The notes under the pieces: model-generated
The model's input: only the letters and a program-made list of their open reading frames with translations
What the model was told of the DNA's origin: nothing
Databases searched by the model: none
Made by a program: the position numbers and the translations under genes
Assembly (NCBI GenBank): GCA_026014735.1
Contig: JAOZHT010000002.1
Span: 248,001-312,000, forward strand
Direction: 5' to 3'
Source of the DNA: Candidatus Bathyarchaeota archaeon
GTDB taxonomy: Archaea; Thermoproteota; Bathyarchaeia; Bathyarchaeales; Bathycorpusculaceae
DNA: 64,000 nucleotides
In this document: one piece after another, positions 50,888 through 56,340 of the stretch
How the letters are laid out: each line of letters opens with the position of its first letter
Numbering within the stretch: position 1 is the first letter of the stretch

Positions 50888-51460
50888 TCACCTTGCCATC
50901 TCCCGACAGGACTCAGCACATCGCCTACAGACGCTTGCGCATTCCTTCATGAAGTCATCTTCGAAGCGGTCGCAGACGTCACTGCATTCATCGCAGATGT
51001 CAGCGCATATGCCGCAGGTTTGTGGGTAGTAGGGGGAGTTTCGGATGATGAAATCGGCGTTGTTGCTGCAGATTTTAGCGCAGTCCATAAGCAAGTTGAT
51101 GTGTCCAGGCTCAGAATGTTTACCGCGCATTCGCAGGCACCGCATGGTGGTTTCAGTACAGCTTTGATAGCAATCCAAAGAGTCTTTGAGGCATTCGCGG
51201 ACTTCATCACTATACATCATCTCGCAGCTTTGGATGCGCTCAAGCTCCTCCATGGTTCCGGAAATTCTGCCTGCGAGGGGCGACTGATTTTTCTCTGACC
51301 AATCCCCCTCAGCAGCCTCTTGCACGGGAGCCCCGGCTTGCGCCGTTTTATCTGGCTCTTGGCTTTTAGACGCGTTTTGGACCTTAGGGTCAGTTAATTC
51401 TTCGACGACATCAGGTTGATTCTTCTCAACTTCCGCTTGGTTTTTGACAGTTTTAGATAT
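50888..51460 (-). CDS. Cys-rich four-helix (DUF326/Csp-like) protein; apparent ATA start
   Basis: The core (about residues 70-190) has Cys spaced along four helices (CYQSCTETTMRCLRMRGKHS, DCAKICSNNADFI, CGICADICDECSDVCDRFE, CASVCRRCAESC), as in copper-storage Csp/DUF326 proteins. The first standard start is GTG 51325. The frame is open to 51461 and an ATA at 51460 lies exactly 6 nt after a perfect GGAGGTGA (51474-51467), giving 190 residues with a polar, Glu/Lys/Gln-rich N-terminal tail. It is upstream of hemerythrin and probably co-transcribed. Copper binding is inferred. Confidence 0.75.
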   Translation of the reverse strand: MSKTVKNQAEVEKNQPDVVEELTDPKVQNASKSQEPDKTAQAGAPVQEAAEGDWSEKNQSPLAGRISGTMEELERIQSCEMMYSDEVRECLKDSLDCYQSCTETTMRCLRMRGKHSEPGHINLLMDCAKICSNNADFIIRNSPYYPQTCGICADICDECSDVCDRFEDDFMKECASVCRRCAESCREMAR

Positions 51461-51677
51461 GCCTCTTCACCTCCCATCAATCAGCCGTGGAAAAAAACAG
51501 TTGCAAGAGAACCCTCTACCTAGCTCGTTGGGGTTGAATGTGACTGATGATAGGATTACATCTTTACTTCTCGTTGGCTTTGATTTAAAAATATGTGGCT
51601 ACTTTTTGCGCCTACATAAAAACCACACTTTTAAAGAGGAAAAGATGGGTTGCCTAAGCGAACCATAGCTTAAGCAT

Positions 51678-52571
51678 TTATTTCTTGGGTAAAAGCTCAC
51701 TTAACTCGTAGCTTGCGCCGCAAAGCACGCTGTCTGCTCCGCCATAGTAAACTATGACTTGATCGTCGATTTGGACGTTGCCGCAGCTGAAAACCACGTT
51801 TGGCACGTCGCCGAGGCATTCATACTGTTCCGAGGGTGTCAAGATCGCGTTTTCTGTGCGGTGAAGCACCTTTTCGGGGTTAGCCTTGTCCAGTAAAGCC
51901 GCGCCCAGTGAATAATGGTTGTTTTCGTCTACGCCATGGTAAATGAACAGGTAGCCTTCGTTTAATTCGATGGGTGTGCCTGCTGCGCCGATTTTTTTGC
52001 TGTCCCACTTTCCGTCCCGTGGCTCCATGATGGATTTGAAGTCGTGCCAACGTTTCAGGTCCTCTGAGTAGGATACACAGATGCTGGGTTCGATCCGATG
52101 GAACATCATGTATTTTCCGTCAACTTTGCCAGGCAAGATAACTGCGTCTTTGTTTCGTACACCCGGGAATGGTAAGCTGCGTTCTTTCCAGTTCCAGTTG
52201 CGGTGAACGAAGTCTCTGAGATTTATCGATGTTAGCGAAATCTGGAAGATAACTGGGAAATCGTGGTTTCGGTATGCTGTGTAGGCCATTATGCATTGGT
52301 CGCCGATTATGGTTAAGCGTGGGTCTTCGCAGCCGTCGCGTTCTGCATGGTGCAGCGGCGTAAAAATCGGTTGCTCTAAACGTTCAGTTATGTTAAAACC
52401 GTCGTTGGATGTTGCTAAGCCTAGTCTTGAGACCATATCGGTTCCTTGTGCTCGATAGACAATGTGGACTTGGCCTTCGCTGTATATGGCTGCAGCGTTA
52501 AATACGGACCTATTCTCCCAAGAGTTCGACTTAATTGGTTCTAATATGGGATTATGTGCAAAGCGTTTCAC
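51678..52571 (-). CDS. GH130 glycoside phosphorylase/hydrolase, copy 1
   Basis: Start set at GTG 52571 (KRFAHNPILEPIKSNSWENR), aligning with copy 2; the frame is open to 52673. The 297-residue five-bladed propeller has RDGCEDPRLTIIGD, whose acidic EDPR holds the family's general acid, LPFPGVRNKDAVILPG, the phosphate/sugar-binding HRIEPSICVSYSEDLKRW and VPNVVFSCGN. GH130 enzymes phosphorolyse or hydrolyse beta-mannosides. It is divergent from the GT4 gene, with both promoters in 150 bp. Confidence 0.85.
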   Translation of the reverse strand: MKRFAHNPILEPIKSNSWENRSVFNAAAIYSEGQVHIVYRAQGTDMVSRLGLATSNDGFNITERLEQPIFTPLHHAERDGCEDPRLTIIGDQCIMAYTAYRNHDFPVIFQISLTSINLRDFVHRNWNWKERSLPFPGVRNKDAVILPGKVDGKYMMFHRIEPSICVSYSEDLKRWHDFKSIMEPRDGKWDSKKIGAAGTPIELNEGYLFIYHGVDENNHYSLGAALLDKANPEKVLHRTENAILTPSEQYECLGDVPNVVFSCGNVQIDDQVIVYYGGADSVLCGASYELSELLPKK

Positions 52572-52720
52572 TAAACCCCTCTCCCTTCGGAAAAAGTCAT
52601 CGGCTAGGTGAAATATAAACCTCATGCAAAACCTAAGACAAAACGTCCTGTGTGACTGACCATACACAATCACATGCGCTTAAACAGAGCAAAATGCTTT
52701 AATTAAAACGTGATTTACTT

Positions 52721-53929
52721 TTGGCTAACACTATCCTTGGCGTCCCTCAACTGAGTAGCGTTAAAGAAGTTGCCTTCGTAAGCACTTTTCCCCCAAGAAA
52801 ATGTGGGATAGCAACCTTTACAGCTGACTTAGTTAACTCCATCGGGGAACTGCATAAGCTTAAAAACCAAACTGTAATCTCCATCGATGGACGCCGCTTC
52901 TTTAAGCCATCGTTCGAGCAGTTAGAACATAAAATCGGACGCGACTTTCAGGAGGATTATTTGTTGATGGCGGATTTTCTAAACAAATCCAGCGTCAACG
53001 CTGTTAATGTGCAGCATGAATTCGGCATCTTCGGGGGAGAAGCAGGCGAGTACATCTGCTCTTTTCTGGAGAGGCTCAAGCATCCAGTTGCCACTACACT
53101 CCACACAGTGCTGCCGAACTTTGAAGACAAACCCAAAGAGGTCTTCGAGAAGGTGGTTGAGAGAAGCCAAGCCATCGTGGTGCTAAACGAAACCACCCGT
53201 TCACTTGTCAGGCGCTATGGGGTTCCGGACCGAAAAGTTAAGTTGATTCCCCACGGCTGCCCAGATTTACCCCTGGTGCCCACGGAGAAAGCCAAGGCTG
53301 AAATTGGCTTAAAGGACAGAGTGGTGCTCTCGACGTTTGGGCTACTATCTAAGGGCAAGGGCATCGAGCACGTTATTGAAGCGTTGCCGGAGCTAGTTAA
53401 GAGGGAGCCACGCATCATCTACTATGTTTTGGGGGTAACGCATCCTGAAGTGAAAAAACAGGAGGGAGAAGCCTACCGCAACAGGCTCCACCGCATGGCC
53501 AAGAGCCGCGGGCTCAGCGGACACGTGCGATTCCTCAACCGTTTCCTCTCTAAACCCGAACTCTACAGATATCTGCAGGCAACCGACGTGTACATCACGC
53601 CTTATGTGTCACCCAATCAGGTAAGCAGCGGCACGTTAAGTTACGCTTTAGCCGCGGGCAAAGCCGTGGTTTCCACCCCCTACCTGCACGCGCAAGAGGC
53701 CCTTGGCGAGGGACGCGGGGTCTTCTGCGGCTTCAACGACAGCGACTCCGTAGCCGAACGCGTCAACGAAGTTATCGAAAACAAGGCGCTGCGTGAATCT
53801 TTAGAGCAGAAAGCCTACAGCTACAGCAGACAATTCACTTGGCCGCTAGTTGCCAAAAAATACCTAGACCTCTTCGATGAGTTAACCAGAGAATCGGAGA
53901 TGAATCAGCCATACACTTATCCCCCATAA
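52721..53929 (+). CDS. Family 4 glycosyltransferase
   Basis: The 402-residue GT-B enzyme has FVSTFPPRKCGIATFTADLV, VQHEFGIFGGEAGEYI, LSTFGLLSKGKGIEHVIEAL (nucleotide-sugar domain start) and TDVYITPYVSPNQVSSGTLS with the EX7E-like region altered to a Gln/Ser version. Start is TTG at 52721. It overlaps the next gene by 19 nt. This GT4 subfamily is regularly linked to the toroid gene that follows and to GH130, so it probably uses GDP-mannose (inference). Confidence 0.85.
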   Translation: MANTILGVPQLSSVKEVAFVSTFPPRKCGIATFTADLVNSIGELHKLKNQTVISIDGRRFFKPSFEQLEHKIGRDFQEDYLLMADFLNKSSVNAVNVQHEFGIFGGEAGEYICSFLERLKHPVATTLHTVLPNFEDKPKEVFEKVVERSQAIVVLNETTRSLVRRYGVPDRKVKLIPHGCPDLPLVPTEKAKAEIGLKDRVVLSTFGLLSKGKGIEHVIEALPELVKREPRIIYYVLGVTHPEVKKQEGEAYRNRLHRMAKSRGLSGHVRFLNRFLSKPELYRYLQATDVYITPYVSPNQVSSGTLSYALAAGKAVVSTPYLHAQEALGEGRGVFCGFNDSDSVAERVNEVIENKALRESLEQKAYSYSRQFTWPLVAKKYLDLFDELTRESEMNQPYTYPP

Positions 53930-54963
53930 AAATAGATTACCTCAAAGCCCTAACCGACGACACCGGCGTTTTCCAACATGCCAAATTCTGCATACCCAAA
54001 CGGGGAGAAGGCTACACAACCGACGACAACGCCCGCGCCCTCATCGCAGCCATAAAATATCACCGCCTCACAGGAGACCCCGACATGCAGCGGCTTGCCC
54101 ATGTTTACCTTGCTTTTCTTAATCATATGCAGAAGCCCGACGGCAACTTCCACAACTACCTCGGCTACGACCGCAGCTTCCTTGACATCGACGGCTCCGA
54201 GGACTGTGCGGGGCGGACGCTTTGGGCTTGCGGATGCACCCTTAATTCCCAGTTGCCCAGGGACATGCGGCTGGTGGCAAAGGACATTTTTGACCGTGGG
54301 CTACCGTGGGTGTGGAAATCGATGTCGCTGAGGTTTTATTCCTCGGCTATACTGGGCTTAGCTGAATACTACCAGGCATTACCCTCCGAGGACATTAAGG
54401 CCAATTCTATGCAGCTTGCCGACAGCATGGTGCAGCGTTACCGAGATGAAGCTAAAGAGAATTGGCGCTGGTTTGAACCCCACTTAACCTACGGCAACGC
54501 CCGATTAACCCAAGCCCTCTACGTCGCCTTTACTCTGCTAAAAGAGCCCCGTTACTTGGAGGTGGCGGAGGAAGCGATGGATTTTCTGCTCCAGACCCAG
54601 ATGTTAAACGGCGTGTACGCGCCCATAGGCAACGACGGCTGGTATAGGCGCGGAGAAAAAAGAGCGCTTTATGACCAGCAGCCCATAGAAGCCGCCTGCA
54701 TGGTGGAAGCAGCCGTCGACGCCTACTACGCAACCAAAAAACGCCGCTACCTCACCGTAGCCAACCAGGTTTTCGGGTGGTTTCTGGGACGCAACAGCCG
54801 CGGGGAGGTCATGTATAACTGTGAGAGCGGAGGATGCTATGATGGCCTCGGGGCGGATTGGGTGAACATGAATCAGGGCGCGGAATCCTCCATCTGCTAT
54901 CTGCTGGCGCGGCTAAAGCTTGAGGAAGCAAAGCAGGGGGCAGGCTGGCAGAAGAGAATTTAA
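53911..54963 (+). CDS. Alpha/alpha-toroid sugar-active protein; apparent ATA start
   Basis: The first standard start is ATG 54085, but the 58 codons before it code the conserved family N-terminus (IKIDYLKALTDDTGVFQHA, GEGYTTDDNARALIAA). The frame has no ATG/GTG/TTG before a stop. ATA 53911 lies 7 nt after GGAGATGA (53896-53903) and gives 350 residues. The rest has the helical-toroid motifs DGNFHNYLGYDRSFLDIDGS, CAGRTLWACG, LTYGNARLTQALY and SGGCYDGL. It is probably a glycosidase or glycosyl-binding partner of the GT4. It is co-translated with GT4. Confidence 0.8.
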   Translation: MHLSPIKIDYLKALTDDTGVFQHAKFCIPKRGEGYTTDDNARALIAAIKYHRLTGDPDMQRLAHVYLAFLNHMQKPDGNFHNYLGYDRSFLDIDGSEDCAGRTLWACGCTLNSQLPRDMRLVAKDIFDRGLPWVWKSMSLRFYSSAILGLAEYYQALPSEDIKANSMQLADSMVQRYRDEAKENWRWFEPHLTYGNARLTQALYVAFTLLKEPRYLEVAEEAMDFLLQTQMLNGVYAPIGNDGWYRRGEKRALYDQQPIEAACMVEAAVDAYYATKKRRYLTVANQVFGWFLGRNSRGEVMYNCESGGCYDGLGADWVNMNQGAESSICYLLARLKLEEAKQGAGWQKRI

Positions 54964-55017: not shown

Positions 55018-55431
55018 TTGTGTGAACCTGTGCTTAAGGTAAGGGACATAATGTGCAAAACAGTCATCACGGCCAAAGAGGACATGTCCATTCAGTTGGC
55101 TGTGCAGTTGCTTAATGAGCGGCATGTGGGGTCAGTGGTGGTGGTTGATGACGAGGATAAAGTCATCGGCATCTTCACTGAGCGGGATGCCGTGCGGTTG
55201 ATGGCAAGCAAGTTCTCCACGCAGGAGCCGCTGAGCAAAATTATGAGTCGCCACGTCGTCACGATTTCTTATCAGGCCTCCTATGATGAGGCGAAAGAGC
55301 TTATGCTAATCCATGACATACGCCATCTCCCCGTGATAGACGAAACCGGCAAGCTCATCGGGTTGTTTTCGCTGCGGGCGTTCTTTGACGAAATCATGGG
55401 GATTAAAACGCCGCTTCCAAGCGCCACGTAG
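55018..55431 (+). CDS. CBS-domain pair protein
   Basis: The 137-residue protein has two CBS modules: VRDIMCKTVITAKEDMSIQL, VVVDDEDKVIGIFTERDAVR, then LSKIMSRHVVTISYQASYDE and HLPVIDETGKLIGLFSLR. Such pairs bind adenine nucleotides and report energy state. GGAGG precedes TTG 55018 by 8 nt. Its position between the toroid and second GH130 genes suggests it regulates sugar metabolism (inference). Confidence 0.88.
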   Translation: MCEPVLKVRDIMCKTVITAKEDMSIQLAVQLLNERHVGSVVVVDDEDKVIGIFTERDAVRLMASKFSTQEPLSKIMSRHVVTISYQASYDEAKELMLIHDIRHLPVIDETGKLIGLFSLRAFFDEIMGIKTPLPSAT

Positions 55432-55440
55432 GAATCCGCC

Positions 55441-56340
55441 ATGGAACGCTACATCGGCAACCCCATCCTGCAGCCTATAGAGGCGCATCCGTGGGAGTCC
55501 CGTGAAGTCTTCAACGCCGCAGCCGTCTACCTTAACGGCAAAGTCCATTTGCTCTACCGCGCCATAGGCAACGATAACATCTCAAGAATCGGTTACGCCT
55601 CCTCCAGCGACGGAGTCCACATCGACGAGCGGCTGGCAGAGCCCGTTTATTCTCCGAGGACGGCATATGAGAAAGACGGCTGCGAAGACCCCCGCCTCAT
55701 AGCCATCGACGACGAGTTAATCATGGCCTACACTGCCCTACGCGAATACAGCCACCTGCAAGTCTACCAGATCGCCCTAACCACCATTAGGCAAACCGAT
55801 TTTTTAGCCAAAAAATGGAAGTGGACGCCGCCTAAGCTGCCGTTTCCAGGCATCCGCAACAAGGACGGCGTGTTGTTTCCCCAGAAAGTCGGCGGCAGAT
55901 ATGTGCTGATGCATCGGGTGGAACCTGACCTCTGCATTGCCTTCTCGGAAGATCTGAATCATTGGTGTGATATACGTTCGGTTATGGGTCCGCGGGCACG
56001 CGGGTGGGATAACTGGAAAATCGGCGGCGGCGCCACCCCGATTAGGATGGGGAATTATTGGCTGGTGGTTTATCATGGCGTAAGCGTGGAGCGGCTTTAC
56101 TCGCTGGGCATCATACTGCTGGATGCCGACAAACCCGAGCGGGTGCTTTACCGCTCCAGAAAAGCGGTTCTTTCGCCGAAAAGAGACTATGAACGCTTCG
56201 GCAAAGTCCCCAACGTCGTGTTCAGCTGCGGCAACGTAGTCATCGGCGAGGACCTCTTCATTTACTATGGCGCCGCCGACAGCAGCGTCTGCGTAGCCAA
56301 AATAGGGCTGGAAAAACTCCTTGCCTCCCTGCGCCAGTAA
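55441..56340 (+). CDS. GH130 glycoside phosphorylase/hydrolase, copy 2
   Basis: The 299-residue paralogue has IGNPILQPIEAHPWESREVF, KDGCEDPRLIAIDDELIMAY, LPFPGIRNKDGVLFPQK, HRVEPDLCIAFSEDLNHW and VPNVVFSCGN. All family landmarks of copy 1 are kept. The two copies are alike along the whole length but not close, so they may act on different chain lengths, as for known tandem beta-1,2-mannoside phosphorylases (analogy). ATG 55441 lies 9 nt after the CBS gene. Confidence 0.87.
   Translation: MERYIGNPILQPIEAHPWESREVFNAAAVYLNGKVHLLYRAIGNDNISRIGYASSSDGVHIDERLAEPVYSPRTAYEKDGCEDPRLIAIDDELIMAYTALREYSHLQVYQIALTTIRQTDFLAKKWKWTPPKLPFPGIRNKDGVLFPQKVGGRYVLMHRVEPDLCIAFSEDLNHWCDIRSVMGPRARGWDNWKIGGGATPIRMGNYWLVVYHGVSVERLYSLGIILLDADKPERVLYRSRKAVLSPKRDYERFGKVPNVVFSCGNVVIGEDLFIYYGAADSSVCVAKIGLEKLLASLRQ

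Follow-up and report, generated by a model that had tools for sequence, protein, structure and literature searches.

The toroid gene and its reading frame

A 64,000-nucleotide stretch of a Candidatus Bathyarchaeota archaeon contig (hereafter the window) carries a GT4 glycosyltransferase gene and, overlapping its 3' end, a gene for a carbohydrate-enzyme-like protein with a predicted alpha/alpha barrel, here referred to as the toroid gene. The start of translation of the toroid gene is the subject of this study. The source genome belongs to a genus of Bathyarchaeia; in the genome collection, Candidatus Bathycorpusculum species are among its named relatives. The features that bear on the start site are:

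52721-53929, + strand: GT4 glycosyltransferase gene; its last 19 nt, read in a different frame, are shared with the toroid gene
53878-53880, + strand: in-frame TGA that opens the toroid reading frame (read from the sequence)
53896-53903, + strand: Shine-Dalgarno (SD)-like motif GGAGATGA, with 7 of 11 matches to AGGAGGTGATC and an aligned spacing of 10 nt
53911-53913, + strand: ATA, the proposed start codon; of 23 other sequences (clade members and paralogues), 22 have ATG, GTG, TTG or ATN at the aligned codon
53911-54084, + strand: the 58 codons before the first ATG; the first barrel helix and 14 invariant residues are encoded here
53911-54963, + strand: toroid gene, 350 aa (from frame, profile match and predicted fold)
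54085-54087, + strand: ATG, the first canonical in-frame codon, which would be internal Met59 (from the frame)

The toroid frame, which ends in a stop codon at 54961-54963, contains no ATG, GTG or TTG from the TGA at 53878-53880 up to 54085 when the sequence is read directly. The codons following the TGA are GTT AAC CAG AGA ATC GGA GAT GAA TCA GCC ATA(53911) CAC TTA TCC CCC ATA AAA ATA GAT TAC, and a gap of 7 nt separates GGAGATGA from the ATA. An earlier note on this DNA had described the same arrangement, i.e., no canonical codon between the upstream stop and a conserved segment, an ATA 7 nt past an SD-like motif, and 58 codons ahead of the first ATG; all of this is borne out, the codon count exactly.

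The segment upstream of the first ATG

The 57 codons past the ATA specify residues that are 54-82% identical to those of 15 sister proteins, a conservation at least equal to that of the remainder of the protein, and 14 of the 66 invariant columns of the toroid alignment lie within the 58-codon stretch. Substitutions in the 57 codons are mostly at third positions; against the sister locus L003 they number 8, 4 and 27 by codon position, with nonsynonymous (dN) and synonymous (dS) substitution rates of 0.11 and 1.55. This pattern indicates purifying selection on the stretch. When 704 genes of the same genome were screened for coding signal ahead of their first NTG, the toroid gene ranked third. 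The earlier note's view that the segment is conserved in the family, and that NTG-only gene calling would trim 58 residues, conserved ones among them, is thus well founded.

In an AlphaFold2 model of the toroid protein (mean predicted local distance difference test score 85.7, predicted template modelling score 0.89, with low confidence for residues 1-30), the first barrel helix comprises residues 37-54 and the next one residues 58-73. A start at Met59 would, according to this model, delete the former and cut into the latter.

The aligned codon in sister genomes

Position 53911 of the window lies 14 codons ahead of the TDD motif, and the corresponding codon was examined in all loci of the genus that extend that far. 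Among the 17 orthologues (window included) it is ATA in 2, ATC in 5, ATT in 6, ATG in 2, GTG in 1 and GCG in 1. The orthologues and the seven paralogues are distributed as follows:

Orthologues with ATA: window, L004
Orthologues with ATC: L005, L008, L009, L011, L077
Orthologues with ATT: L006, L007, L010, L018, L012, L013 (in L012 and L013 one codon farther out)
Orthologues with ATG: L003, L016
Orthologue with GTG: L015
Orthologue with GCG: L014
Paralogues with GTG: L019, L020, L024
Paralogues with TTG: L026, L030, L031
Paralogue with ATG: L029

Across orthologues and paralogues, valine is encoded at this position solely by GTG and leucine solely by TTG. A set made up of ATG, GTG, TTG and ATN, with Val and Leu restricted in this way, is the trace that would be expected of a start codon and not of a conserved hydrophobic residue. 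Neither is the position a conserved Ile, because GT4-toroid fusion proteins of other phyla carry E (6), A, G, Q or S there. No NTG precedes the motif in eight genomes (window, L004, L007, L008, L010, L012, L013 and L018), and in L077 TTG is present only at the conserved LPP and after it. Since seven other genomes likewise lack an NTG upstream of the motif, a sequencing error, which the earlier note had named as a possible refutation, is unlikely.

Loci L003 (ATG) and L004 (ATA) are sister rows on the tree (98/92 support) and have in common a GGAGG at 9-nt spacing; the ATN/NTG label cannot be mapped on the whole tree with fewer than three changes. The aligned SD-to-start spacing is 9-10 nt in canonical members (L003, L015, L016, L019, L024, L026 and L031) and equally in ATN members (window, L004, L007, L008, L011, L012, L013 and L018), and at ATG starts of the genome to which the window belongs the SD spacing peaks at 7-10 nt.

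In a further family (f7), the toroid start is ATG in locus L021, and the matching codon of L022 (genome G042), at about 1415-1425, is ATA; in L022 the conserved region begins without any NTG ahead of it.

Probable initiation at the ATA codon

It is concluded that the toroid protein is very probably initiated at the near-cognate ATA 53911 under direction of the SD motif, the codon presumably being read as Met by the initiator tRNA. That the ATA is the initiator had been proposed in the earlier note, and the proposal gains support from the NTG found at the aligned codon in L003, L015, L016 and all seven paralogues at an equal SD distance. The gene combines a lack of in-frame AUG, GUG and UUG ahead of its conserved coding sequence with alignment to the canonical start of homologues and an SD motif at a productive spacing, its own motif being only moderately strong.

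In mechanistic terms, GGAGATGA would place the small subunit within the 3' end of the GT4 gene, and the initiator Met-tRNA would pair with the A and U of the AUA, notwithstanding the third-base mismatch, giving a protein with the N-terminus Met-His-Leu-Ser-Pro. The SD motif may compensate for the AUN codon at low yield; initiation would then likely be weak, and the common transcript would yield less toroid enzyme than GT4 enzyme. Genus-wide, the start position would be kept while the third base drifts (ATA, ATC, ATT, ATG), which would amount to a natural experiment on the tolerance of archaeal initiation.

Several observations weigh against initiation at the ATA. The SD motif of the window is among the weaker ones, with a longest run of 4. 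In five sisters an NTG stands two codons before the site (ATG in L005, L009 and L014, GTG in L006, TTG in L011) and may be their start; in L014 it must be, because the aligned codon is GCG. Such a start is not possible in the window, which has TCA at that position. The factor aIF1, which in Sulfolobus favours discrimination against non-canonical starts (as cited in PMC6237735), is present in 29 of 32 genomes, that of the window included. Among ORFs of the same genome, codon counts at SD distance show peaks for ATG, GTG and TTG and none for ATA, ATT or ATC, so AUN use is not widespread by this measure.

The upstream NTG is only about 1 nt from GGAGG in L005, L006, L009 and L014, and its spacing is 4 in L011; it may also stem from a Trp codon (TGG) in the GT4 frame. 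The sister-genome check put forward in the earlier note answers most of the question: canonical starts stand at the aligned codon and the same SD distance. One outcome that the note named as refuting, an NTG elsewhere in sisters, is seen in part, in these five sisters. The ATC and ATT codons at this position in the genus, and the further genes with like starts, one of them in the window, go beyond that note. Loss of aIF1 as a cause of unusual starts was considered and rejected, as the factor is present in this genome. A tRNA scan of 864 kb of the genome detected no initiator tRNA in the stretches covered and is uninformative.

In bacteria, AUA and AUU starts are conserved in infC, pcnB, ccpN and cvfC1, and in Staphylococcus aureus such starts with an extended SD give approximately 10% of the AUG yield, or up to 30% for ccpN in rich medium (PMC13009471). 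The toroid gene resembles these genes in its proposed AUN initiator, its upstream SD and the conservation of the position across species. Unlike them, it is archaeal, its third base varies by species, its proposed start lies inside the upstream gene, and it encodes a predicted metabolic enzyme and no known regulator. A review gives the archaeal start codons as AUG, GUG and UUG (PMC7531240). A search of open-access literature on AUA, ACG and other non-canonical starts in connection with archaea returned no archaeal case, which is not proof of novelty; AUN starts are already known in bacteria, and an archaeal one appears to be without report in the literature searched.

Alternative explanations

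The alternative that survives best, although still unlikely, is a variant of ATA initiation in which termination-reinitiation coupled to GT4 translation is the main driver and the codon is of minor importance, the start still being at an ATN codon. The two genes do overlap, and in L018 the ATT overlaps the GT4 stop by 5 nt as ATTAG. An ATT start would permit exactly this -5 overlap (PMC10666635), and the L018 case also counts in favour of an ATN start. However, coupling has a stop-to-start range of -8 to +6 nt (PMC10666635), and with a window overlap of 19 nt and clade overlaps of 5-50 nt, only L018 falls within it; overlaps of 19, 25, 26, 47 and 50 nt lie outside, and the overlap geometry is not conserved.

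Programmed frameshifting in the overlap, which would yield a GT4-toroid fusion, is improbable. It finds a parallel in the fused homologues of Mucilaginibacter, Caldithrix, Chitinispirillum and Thermoleophilia, which have the same two domains in identical order; these are single open reading frames (ORFs), whereas the window has two overlapping ORFs and a separate toroid start. The GT4 and toroid ORFs overlap across most of the toroid clade, and a CCCCCA run stands ahead of the GT4 stop in the window. Archaeal programmed -1 frameshifting is documented for the Saccharolobus alpha-fucosidase (PMC8211752), which likewise involves two overlapping ORFs in different frames. In contrast to that case, the GT4/toroid frame relation is inconstant across orthologues: the offset is 1 in the window, L005, L006, L009, L011, L014 and L016, and 2 in L003, L004, L007, L008, L010, L012, L013, L015 and L018. 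A single type of frameshift therefore cannot explain the family: a -1 shift would be required in the window and a +1 shift in most of the other genomes that lack an NTG. Moreover, in L018 only about 14 nt separate one stop from the other, canonical starts with an SD occupy this site in L003, L015 and L016, and an SD motif at fixed spacing would be unexpected.

A start at a neighbouring non-canonical codon is more improbable still: ATC 53893, ATA 53926 and ATA 53932 are all in frame, but none of them aligns with an NTG codon of the sisters or paralogues, and all are off the SD spacing. Finally, a start at ATG 54085 with the upstream part untranslated, a decayed copy or a base error, although ATG 54085 is what an NTG-only gene finder would be expected to output, is very improbable in view of the purifying selection and 14 invariant residues upstream, the loss of barrel helix 1 and the equal lack of NTG in seven other genomes.

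Other proposed unusual starts in the genome

The upstream coding-signal screen, whose candidates were then compared with relatives, gave hits in 20 of 704 genes versus 5 of 350 in the control genome G048 from another family, with most hits in both unverified. A genus-specific excess is not claimed, because G048 has fewer hits yet shares the dnaG ACG described below and because most hits are unverified. Reciprocal-best ORF pairs against 400 kb of genome G011 were dominated by antisense shadow ORFs and upstream overlaps, and have cross-check value only.

Judged by alignment with relatives, unusual starts are not confined to the toroid gene; a second gene with ATA, two with CTG and two with ACG are backed in this way. 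The second ATA start lies in the window:

51458-51460, - strand: proposed ATA start of the cysteine-rich gene 50888-51460(-), which is 50891-51466(-) among the screen hits, 6 nt past GGGAGGTGA (51467-51475)

The aligned codon of its sisters is TTG in 3, GTG in 3 and ATG in 2, and the rest are not alignable there without gaps. The CTG genes are atpC (L085:10796-11866(-); sisters TTG in 11 and ATG in 1, three more being misaligned by small indels) and a NUDIX gene (L166:6350-6790(+); sisters TTG in 9, GTG in 4 and ATG in 3). ACG is found in mobB (L152:10651-11223(-)) of this genome and four sisters, with ATG in ten and GTG in one elsewhere. In the dnaG primase gene (L167:3-1205(-), G000 C1:739970-741205), 143 codons are without NTG in this genome. 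Nine codons before K-Y, downstream of an SD motif, nearly all of the family's genomes examined have ACG, as do G048 and one genus belonging to a second family (f6/g16). Other families have ATG at this codon, and so does a single genome of the same genus (L268).

In trpE (L090:8957-10369(-)), 100 codons are without NTG, and most of the genus shares the conserved block ATGATNNAAATGGGGAATCGCCTTTGGC, whose ATG stands in a different frame; in L112 an in-frame TGA stands right before GGA ATC. Either an ATC start or a +1 frameshift would account for trpE. A homocitrate/isopropylmalate-synthase-like gene of G048 (L198:4830-6386(-), G048 C1:164830-166386) has a leader (AAATGGGGGATCGCT, KWGIA) that resembles the trpE leader of the genus; this is perhaps a common leader element of biosynthetic genes. 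A cobJ-like gene (G000 C1:236807-237628(-)) has no NTG before VSVVGIGPG, and a sister reads ATG CGA versus ATG TGA in this genome.

On balance, we lean slightly towards a lineage with generally relaxed start choice, in which AUA, AUC, AUU, CUG and ACG serve as initiators in at least roughly 1% of genes, among them dnaG with an ACG that is kept in nearly the whole family and occurs also in a second family of the order. If it is true that ACG starts dnaG through nearly the whole family, near-cognate starts would be selectively kept in archaea, as they are for infC and pcnB in bacteria. Gene callers that accept NTG only would truncate or misplace such proteins, with 58 residues lost in the toroid protein and the first NTG 100 codons in for trpE and 143 for dnaG.

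Predicted function and neighbouring genes

The toroid protein matches the Pfam profile PF07944 at 26.9 bits (cut-off 24.9), and its model superposes on 7tem_B with a template modelling (TM) score of 0.79 at a sequence identity below 20%. Profile and fold together predict an alpha/alpha toroid carbohydrate enzyme of PF07944-like type. In predicted fold it resembles the toroids of the AGE superfamily and GH127-like enzymes (7tem, cellobiose 2-epimerases, PF07944), from which it differs in its low sequence identity. Two genes follow downstream:

55018-55431, + strand: CBS-domain gene with a TTG start
55441-56340, + strand: GH130 family gene (manno-oligosaccharide phosphorylase family), by Pfam

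GH130-like genes at 51678-52673(-) and 55441-56340(+), the Pfam check covering the second only, flank the GT4-toroid pair, which suggests a mannan or manno-oligosaccharide locus.
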